Assembly (NCBI GenBank): GCA_018335015.1
Contig: JAGXKX010000004.1
Coordinates: forward strand, 1-60,767
From: Candidatus Bipolaricaulota bacterium
Lineage (GTDB): Bacteria; Bipolaricaulota; Bipolaricaulia; M55B111
DNA length: 60,767 bases
Direction: 5' to 3'
The first letter of the stretch is position 1. Every line of letters begins with the position of its first letter. Of the stretch, positions 20,779 to 55,015 are shown piece after piece. The notes under the pieces were generated by a model. The model made no database searches. It saw nothing but the letters and a program-made list of their open reading frames with translations, and had not been told where the DNA came from. Position numbers and translations under genes: made by a program.

Positions 20779-20981
20779 CTCAGTTCTTGCACCATTATTC
20801 GGAAGCGAGGGGTATCTCATATAGCAATAACTATATTTTTTAGTCCAATCCTCCTGCCCCTTACCTGGTAACTGATTTAACCTCAAAATCTTACCAGTAG
20901 AGGTAATCCCGGCAGCCAGGTAAGGGGCAGGAGGCATATGAGGACAAAATAATGATATACGACGATAGTGAAAGAACTGAT
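20779..20981 (+). mobile_element. MITE-like palindromic element, copy 1 (203 bp)
   Basis: Outer TIR CTCAGTTCTTGCACCATT...AGTGAAAGAACTGAT; internal perfect 19-bp arms CCTCCTGCCCCTTACCTGG (20850-20868)/CCAGGTAAGGGGCAGGAGG (20916-20934); flanked by TGTAA (20774-20778 and 20982-20986). Confidence 0.85.
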
Positions 20982-21072: not shown

Positions 21073-21104
21073 TTCCGGGAGGGCATGGGAGCCCTCCCTG
21101 CTAT
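21073..21104. repeat. Short hairpin repeat family P, copy 2
   Basis: TTCCGGGAGGGC-ATGGGA-GCCCTCCCTGCTAT. Confidence 0.45.
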
Positions 21105-21638: not shown

Positions 21639-21775
21639 AATTTACCTCCGAATTTTTTACCCAGGGGAAGTTAGTTATTCAGTCAAATTATCTTTATGAT
21701 TGTGCAATTCAGGCTGGTAAAATTCAAGGGCCGTGAGTCTTAGGCGGATTCACCAAGTACTTGTTTTGCTGTACT

Positions 21776-21804
21776 AACGGGAGCACGGGGACTCCCTTTG
21801 CTAT
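21776..21804. repeat. Short hairpin repeat family P, copy 3
   Basis: ACGGGAG-CACGGGGA-CTCCCTTTGCTAT. Confidence 0.4.
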
Positions 21805-28916: not shown

Positions 28917-29117
28917 CACAGTTCCTCCACCACCCCCGTACATCATTGTTTTGTCCTCCTGTGCCTCCTGCCTAATTACCTGGCAACTGATTTAACCTTA
29001 AAATTCTACCAGTAGACAAAATCCGGCAGCCAGGTAATAGGCAGGAGGCTTGAACTAAAAAATATAATGATTTCTTGTCTCCTTCACATTGCTTCCGACG
29101 GTAGTGAAAGAACTGAG
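28917..29117 (+). mobile_element. MITE-like palindromic element, copy 2 (201 bp)
   Basis: CACAGTTCCTCCACCA...AGTGAAAGAACTGAG ends; arms 28963-28984/29029-29049 complementary with one bulge; AGAA on both sides (28913-28916 and 29118-29121). Confidence 0.85.
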
Positions 29118-30924: not shown

Positions 30925-30996
30925 CTCTCAATCACCCCGAACTGTCAGCTATGATAGCGGAAGGAAGGAAAATTTAAAAGAGCGAGGAAAAAACTT

Positions 30997-31097
30997 TGCC
31001 TCCTGTCCCTTACCTGGCTGCCGGGATTTAGTCTACTGGTAGGAGTTTAAGGTTAAATCAGTCCAGGTAAGGGACAGGAGGCATAGGAGGACAAAAC
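30997..31097 (-). mobile_element. MITE-like palindromic element, copy 3 (partial; core and inner flank)
   Basis: Perfect 21-bp arms TGCCTCCTGTCCCTTACCTGG (30997-31017)/CCAGGTAAGGGACAGGAGGCA (31063-31083); right inner flank TAGGAGGACAAAAC; outer TIRs not recognised. Confidence 0.7.
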
Positions 31098-37094: not shown

Positions 37095-37289
37095 CTCAGT
37101 TATTCACCAACGGCGACCTTGCTGTTTGGTCCGAAGAGGAGTTCCCCCCTTACCTGGCAACTGATTTAACCTTTTCAACTCAGTAGTAGACAAAATCCGG
37201 CAGCCAGGTAAGGGGGGAACTCCTAGAAAAAAGAAGTCAAAATATTCGTGAATTAAGCTTCGCTTTCAGGCAATGGAGAAAGATGTGAG
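37095..37289 (+). mobile_element. MITE-like palindromic element, copy 4 (~195 bp, diverged outer arms)
   Basis: CTCAGTTATTCACCAA left end; GGAGAAAGATGTGAG right end; perfect arms GGAGTTCCCCCCTTACCTGGC (37138-37158)/GCCAGGTAAGGGGGGAACTCC (37203-37223). Confidence 0.75.
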
Positions 37290-42641: not shown

Positions 42642-42844
42642 CTCAGATCTTCCACCATCGCATGAAAGCGAAACTTAATGGTGAGTATTGATTTCTTTTT
42701 TTCACTACTAGCTCTCTACCTCTTACCTGGCTGCCGGATTTCGTCTCCTGGTGAGTTTTAAAGGTTAAATCAGTTGCCAGCTAAGAGGTAGAGAGCAGTC
42801 ATCCGAACCAGGTAGTTAAATCCACCGTTGGTGAAAGATCTGAG
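42642..42844 (-). mobile_element. MITE-like palindromic element, copy 5 (203 bp)
   Basis: CTCAGATCTTCCACCA...TGGTGAAAGATCTGAG ends; arms GCTCTCTACCTCTTACCTGGC (42711-42731)/GCCAGCTAAGAGGTAGAGAGC (42776-42796), one mismatch; flanks TGCAA/TACAA. Confidence 0.83.
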
Positions 42845-51816: not shown

Positions 51817-51829
51817 TCCGGCTTCTCAA

Positions 51830-51950
51830 GCTCTCCCCCACTTACCTGACAACTGATTTAACCTTTAAAACTTACCAGTAGACGAAATCCGGCAGTCAGG
51901 TAAGTGGGGGAGAGCAGTCAACTATGTACGACAGTGGGAAAAGAACTGAG
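51830..51950 (+). mobile_element. MITE-like palindromic element, copy 6 (left outer arm absent)
   Basis: Perfect arms GCTCTCCCCCACTTACCTGAC (51830-51850)/GTCAGGTAAGTGGGGGAGAGC (51895-51915); right end GTGGGAAAAGAACTGAG at 51950. Confidence 0.75.
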
Positions 51951-53877: not shown

Positions 53878-54301
53878 GCATAAATATCACTAGACCGGCT
53901 CCGGTCACGATTGCAACGTCGGCAAGGTTAAATATGGGGGCCCTCCAGACTTGAATAAAATCGACCACGGCCCCGGTCATAAGCCTGTCCACCAGGTTAC
54001 CCAATGATCCACCGAGCAAAAATGCAAGTCCGAGTTTCGTTATCGACTGTCGCAGTCCCGAAAAGAAAAGAAGATAAACCAGCAGACCCACCGCGATTAC
54101 CGTTATCAGGAGAAATAGGTAACCTTTTCTCGGAAAAAGTCCAAACGCCCCGCCCGAGTTTTTGACGTAATGGAGGGAAAAGAATCCATTTCGAAAAAAT
54201 ATCGGATGTCCTCCCCTGTAGCCGACCCCCGCGAGAAACTTGCTCAACCTATCCAGTACGAAGACGAAAAGCGCTATCAGAAAGTACTGCAAATTTCCCA
54301 C
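53846..54301 (-). CDS. lspA: Lipoprotein signal peptidase II
   Basis: LGNLVDRLMTGAVVDFI; FNLADVAIVTGAGLV. Confidence 0.93.
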   Translation of the reverse strand: MGNLQYFLIALFVFVLDRLSKFLAGVGYRGGHPIFFRNGFFSLHYVKNSGGAFGLFPRKGYLFLLITVIAVGLLVYLLFFSGLRQSITKLGLAFLLGGSLGNLVDRLMTGAVVDFIQVWRAPIFNLADVAIVTGAGLVIFMLAGGSRFLGQ

Positions 54302-54352
54302 TTTACCTCCACTCCGGGCTTAAAACTCCTCTGTCTTATCCAGTAGCTACTT

Positions 54353-54553
54353 CTCAATTCTTTCACCATCCCCGTACATCATTGCTTTGTCCTCCTATGC
54401 CTCCTGCCTCTTACTTGGCTGCCGGATTTTGCCTACTGGTAGAATTTTAAGGTTAAATCAGTTGCCAGTTAAGAGGCAGGAGGTTTGAACTAAAAAATAT
54501 GGTGATTCCTCCTGACCTTCACCTTGCTTCCGAATAGTGGTGAAAGAACTGAG
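54353..54553 (-). mobile_element. MITE-like palindromic element, copy 7 (201 bp)
   Basis: CTCAATTCTTTCACCA...TGGTGAAAGAACTGAG ends; arms 54400-54419/54464-54483 (two mismatches); exact 5-bp flank TACTT (54348-54352 and 54554-54558). Confidence 0.87.
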
Positions 54554-54574
54554 TACTTTCCAACCTTTATCAAT

Positions 54575-55015
54575 CTAGGTCCAGACCATTAACCTGCTTA
54601 TCCTGGCGTTTTCCTTGATATTCAAACCCGAAGAGCTGACGTGCAGAACGGGGCTTTCCCTCAAATCTCCCTGGAAGATTAAAGGAGGATGGAACGATCC
54701 TCCCGAAGTCATCCTATTCAGAGGTACCACGAGTCCAAGACCTTCTGAAACGTTAATCTCCTCGTTGAACTCAATTATATAAATCCCGCCCTCCAGGTTC
54801 CACCAGCCGTAGTCGTCTTCGGGTGATCTCTTTGCGGGCTCCACCGGATCGAGATCCCCCAACTTCTCCTCGCTTCCCCCAAAATCAAGGTCGGTAGGGG
54901 AGGTCGGTTTTCTTACACTGTCGACTGTCAAATCGATTCCGGTATTCGCCAGTTGAGTTTCTTCGTGAATAATTCCATCTACGTAACCCTCAAGTTCTTT
55001 GCCGAAAAGAAACAT
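54575..55015 (-). CDS. dCTP deaminase/dUTPase-fold protein, divergent
   Basis: ANTGIDLTVDSV near N terminus; EFNEEINVSEGLGLVVPLNRMTSGG; GLNIKENARISRLMVW. Confidence 0.6.
   Translation of the reverse strand: MFLFGKELEGYVDGIIHEETQLANTGIDLTVDSVRKPTSPTDLDFGGSEEKLGDLDPVEPAKRSPEDDYGWWNLEGGIYIIEFNEEINVSEGLGLVVPLNRMTSGGSFHPPLIFQGDLRESPVLHVSSSGLNIKENARISRLMVWT

Follow-up and report, generated by a model that had tools for sequence, protein, structure and literature searches.

The window, which is the whole 60,767-nt stretch analysed here (contig JAGXKX010000004.1 of a Candidatus Bipolaricaulota bacterium), carries at 54353-54553 a 201-bp element with the same five bases, TACTT, directly outside both of its ends. 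A preliminary description of this DNA had claimed such an exact 5-bp duplication, and it is indeed present, abutting CTCAATTCTTTCACCA on the left and TGGTGAAAGAACTGAG on the right. The features of the locus are the following.

54348-54352, no strand: left target-site duplication TACTT, from the sequence and from flank statistics over the copies
54353-54553, plus strand: MITE copy of 201 bp, loop in orientation A
54353-54368, plus strand: left TIR, CTCAATTCTTTCACCA (family consensus CTCAGTTCTTTCACCA)
54400-54419, plus strand: left arm of the internal hairpin stem, CCTCCTGCCTCTTACTTGGC
54420-54463, plus strand: invertible hairpin loop of 44 nt, orientation A (the majority of copies have B)
54464-54483, plus strand: right arm of the internal hairpin stem, GCCAGTTAAGAGGCAGGAGG
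54538-54553, plus strand: right TIR, TGGTGAAAGAACTGAG, from the sequence
54554-54558, no strand: right target-site duplication TACTT, from the sequence

The element belongs to a family present in tens of copies per genome in one Ca. Bipolaricaulota genus. We read more than 60 TIR-bounded copies, which mostly measure 192-204 bp, carry no gene and are too short for a transposase. Their ends are CTCAG/CTGAG and their 16-bp TIR has the consensus given above; when up to two mismatches were allowed, this 16-mer matched 151 times in G000, against two matches for the reversed pattern. A search of the element's own genome, a 1.96-Mb draft in 152 contigs that is 87% complete, returned at least 71 matches (the best 40 of 167 candidates were scored), and since a hairpin also matches its own opposite strand, the copies number fewer than these 71. 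Further copies lie within the window.

20779-20981, minus strand: second copy, exact duplication TGTAA/TGTAA, loop A
28917-29117, plus strand: third copy, left TIR diverged and duplication unreadable, loop B
30996-31084, minus strand: degenerate copy, hairpin only, TIR unrecognisable
37095-37289, plus strand: old copy, loop inverted in the orthologous G003 copy
42642-42844, minus strand: copy from a subfamily whose arms differ, flanked by the duplication TGCAA/TACAA (4/5), site empty in G003
51828-51950, plus strand: old copy (hairpin and right TIR) that has orthologues in G002 and G003 and a compensatory stem change in situ

Of 40 genomes searched, from as far out as the class, only three besides its own held related copies, and all three belong to the same genus; an exact 20-mer of the element matched only a Candidatus Bipolaricaulota bacterium in a named genome collection. 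The plasmid, phage and viral collections that we searched contained no such element; exact-word matches in viral sequences came without the hairpin and TIR context, look like chance and were discarded. Rfam 15 gave no match above the gathering score in the window, just sub-threshold chance hits. Although the DNA is about 86% coding, 56 of 57 copies lie outside ORFs, with no strong bias towards convergent, tandem or divergent gene contexts. In G000, copies also sit within about 300 bp of the ends of contigs C11, C16, C18, C21, C26, C79, C117, C126 and C152; with many copies at contig ends, the assembly is probably broken by the family, whose copy number is then underestimated.

The flanks of the other copies confirm that the TACTT duplication exceeds chance and that 5 bp is the sole length standing out. 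An exact (5/5) flank duplication occurs in 29 of 68 distinct two-ended copies and a 4/5 match in another 15, bearing out the expectation that other genomic copies would share this duplication length. Copies with at most two end mismatches have the exact duplication in 19 of 31 cases, and about one third of all copies, mostly degenerate ones, have three or fewer matching flanking bases. When left and right flanks from different copies were paired as a control, 5/5 identity appeared in 0.44% of pairs. Mean per-base flank identity was 0.76 in the 5-bp register versus 0.28-0.40 at lengths of 2-4 and 6-11. The duplications are 81% A+T, compared with 58% in flanking DNA, most commonly with T first and A last.

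Empty orthologous sites, which were to be checked for a single target copy, could be read at base level for three other copies. The 42642-42844 copy is missing from G003, which has AACAA where the window has TGCAA and TACAA; the copy at L148:7042 is missing from both G002 and G003, which have TAAGG and TAAGA versus TAAAA in G000; and the copy at L148:15681 is missing from G003. Furthermore, copy L012 is nested in the loop of another copy, and since deleting L012 together with one TAGTA restores the canonical host hairpin, this insertion counts as a further empty site. At 54353 itself this check failed: the element is absent between the same genes in the relatives G002, G003, G001 and G004, where divergence of the intergenic sequence has gone too far for a single TACTT to be read. 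For the copies at 20779 and 28917, too, the intergenic DNA is too diverged for any base-level empty site. The family has moved recently, as an identical 201-bp element, letter for letter, occupies two different sites, L006 and L007, with the duplications TTTTC and ATGAT.

Two of these sites have neighbours worth recording. The right duplication of the copy at L148:7042-7249 adjoins an RNase P RNA gene (RF00010, L148:7250-7588, minus strand). In G002, a different copy (C11:2949-3148) lies within about 25 bp of the position corresponding to L148:15681; its flanks mismatched across the element, so it was left out of the count as an orthologue, and it may have inserted independently at a hot spot.

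Taken together, the flank statistics, the empty sites of other copies and the nested insertion support the original claim that transposition left a 5-bp duplication. Recombination or gene conversion might instead have spread an intergenic hairpin with a function such as termination or RNA processing, with TACTT arising by chance, and this would suit the intergenic position of all copies but one and the conservation of the hairpin above any other part of the element. We nevertheless consider it extremely improbable, as exact 5-bp duplications are far above the control, the empty sites hold a single target, the nested insertion has its own duplication, and a consensus scan found no terminator-like site at 54200-54700.

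Nearly every copy contains a hairpin with a 20-21-bp stem and a conserved loop of about 44 nt, which the preliminary description overlooked together with the inversion of the loop. RNA folding gave z = -7.2 for one strand and -6.1 for the other. Across 56 distinct hairpins, 94.7% of cells are paired, and 17 of 25 pairs have a change on both sides. Double-changed cells numbered 163, whereas shuffling gave 43 and the slid controls 14-38; related copies are not independent in this count. The sequence of the outer stem varies freely provided that pairing is kept. In the stem, double changes far outnumber one-sided changes that preserve pairing (G-U), which appears to favour correction of both arms together over compensation one step at a time. 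At the window 51836 locus, where three species share the same loop direction, compensatory stem differences are seen in situ.

Subfamilies whose arms cannot be aligned share the same ends and the same hairpin. This common core, a few cores that stand without recognisable TIRs, and two coreless TIR elements in G003 (L130:1957-2057, 101 bp, and L128:2327-2435, 109 bp, their flanks matching at 4/5) could be explained if the core were an independent mobile element that had entered many TIR elements in either direction, which would account for the opposite loops as well as for the unrelated arms. Yet 143 of 157 TIR sites have a core within 200 nt, a figure biased upward because many loci were fetched via the element itself; neither a duplication nor a precise junction was seen to flank the core; and among copies with matched arms, as well as at one orthologous locus, the loop differs in direction while the two stem arms stay where they are. 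An independent core is therefore improbable. The two coreless copies resemble deletions and show that the hairpin can be lost.

The loop is found in two directions relative to the arms: A, as at 54353, and B, as in the majority of copies. On a tree built from the arms only, loop direction requires eight changes, at least five of them forced by well-supported branches; the arms are short and many branches weak, and a single change suffices in no bootstrap tree. One inversion can be seen in place. At window 37144, where both flanks and arms can be aligned with the orthologous G003 copy, the loop of G003 is inverted, scoring 53 in that direction and 12 in the direct one. At the L147:12577 site, G002 has an inverted core that is too degenerate to be taken as a second in-situ flip.

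Repeated flips between inverted repeats might suggest a switch, in which the stem repeats serve as sites for a dedicated recombinase that turns the loop. The freely varying, merely paired outer stem argues against a fixed recombinase site, however, and compared with known invertases a spacer of 44 bp is very short; we regard such a switch as improbable. Rather, we think that the loop flips and the joint arm changes are probably by-products of replication template switching within the hairpin. Arm homogenisation and spacer inversion are both among the reported consequences of template switching (PMC8604942), which can also maintain hairpin stems (PMC8794818).

Selection for the hairpin may act alongside template switching. 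That the hairpin persists across subfamilies with unalignable arms could mean, and we put this forward tentatively, that it helps the element to spread or to be tolerated. A stronger version holds that the perfectly paired hairpin and fixed loop are a working part under selection, needed as DNA or RNA for mobilisation or host tolerance, with loop direction as a reversible two-state feature; this we consider unlikely.

Other repeats accompany the family. A 282-bp copy at L085:1543-1824 (G002 C286) holds an insert of about 75 bp that is bounded by inverted ends of its own, ATAGTGTAGCA...TGCTACACTAT, and by what looks like a duplication of about 9 bp, AAGGCGAGA; the insert represents a second, unrelated family of miniature elements. 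Some TIRs run directly into another repeated hairpin, GCCGAGGAAGCCC...GGGAGGAATCGGC (L046 at about 159-174; L095:1657, in G000 C67 and G002 C98; and the start of L086); this hairpin may be another mobile element that has inserted at the TIR or close to it. Other short sequences, at 21076-21104 and 21770-21804 of the window and at L148:1655-2410, recur in many copies in G003 and G002; one of them is hairpin-like (GGGAGGGCATGGGAGCCCTCCC), and they point to further repeat families in the genus.

No transposase with matching ends was found in the incomplete drafts among TIR pairs up to 4 kb apart, by comparing unpaired TIRs with one another, or with DDE_Tnp_1, Tn3 and rve profiles. The Pfam families DDE_Tnp_1 and DDE_Tnp_Tn3 (PF01526) were absent from six genomes of the genus and family (G000-G005), all incomplete draft assemblies, and the rve matches in G001 and G002 lack the family TIRs. 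A 1069-bp TIR pair in G002 C270 was rejected as the autonomous partner, having neither a matching duplication nor a credible transposase.

The length and AT preference of the duplication recall TIMEs (PMC4133298), which are likewise non-autonomous and of near-constant length, and the family could in principle be a Tn3-derived miniature element moved by a Tn3-family transposase. However, TIMEs have the 38-bp Tn3 inverted repeats, whereas the repeats here are unrelated and about 16 bp long, and the Tn3 transposase is missing from the six incomplete assemblies; we judge this origin very improbable. The element would more plausibly be moved in trans by a DDE-type transposase whose cuts, staggered by 5 bases, fall in AT-rich targets of the approximate form TTNNA. 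The 5-bp duplication would arise when the staggered cut is repaired, and insertion could be either cut-and-paste or copy-and-paste (replicative).

In conclusion, the element at 54353-54553 very likely belongs to a MITE family of an uncultured Ca. Bipolaricaulota genus, an element of about 200 bp, presumably mobilised in trans, that makes 5-bp duplications and contains a hairpin whose loop and arms were probably altered by template switching. Transposition is ordinary in itself and is now well supported for a phylum in which, within the literature searched, we found no description of a MITE; nor did that literature yield a description of loop inversion in a bacterial MITE. The many hairpin copies in several related genomes record both loop inversions and paired stem changes, so that the rate of template switching relative to that of structural selection becomes measurable in a bacterium; work on this question has usually relied on yeast, plastids and RNA genes.

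The features on which the MITE assignment rests are TIRs, a duplication of constant length (5 bp), small repeated units without a transposase gene, and empty orthologous sites. In these respects the family resembles the bacterial MITEs Correia/NEMIS, ERIC, RUP and YPAL (PMC2229807), which are about 100-200 bp long, carry no gene, have TIRs and a target duplication, lie between genes and are highly structured. Most bacterial MITEs end in TA (PMC2229807); unlike such TA-type elements (Correia, ERIC, RUP), the present family has CTCAG/CTGAG ends and a 5-bp AT-rich duplication, and unlike the bacterial MITEs reviewed (PMC2229807) it has an internal hairpin whose loop occurs in both orientations. 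Its arms and loop show the same marks as template-switch products at inverted repeats in yeast and in RNA genes, namely arm homogenisation or compensatory change (PMC8604942, PMC8794818) and spacer inversion (PMC8604942). In contrast to those cases, which concern inverted repeats of the host or RNA genes, the hairpin here lies within a multi-copy transposable element, and many such events can therefore be counted.
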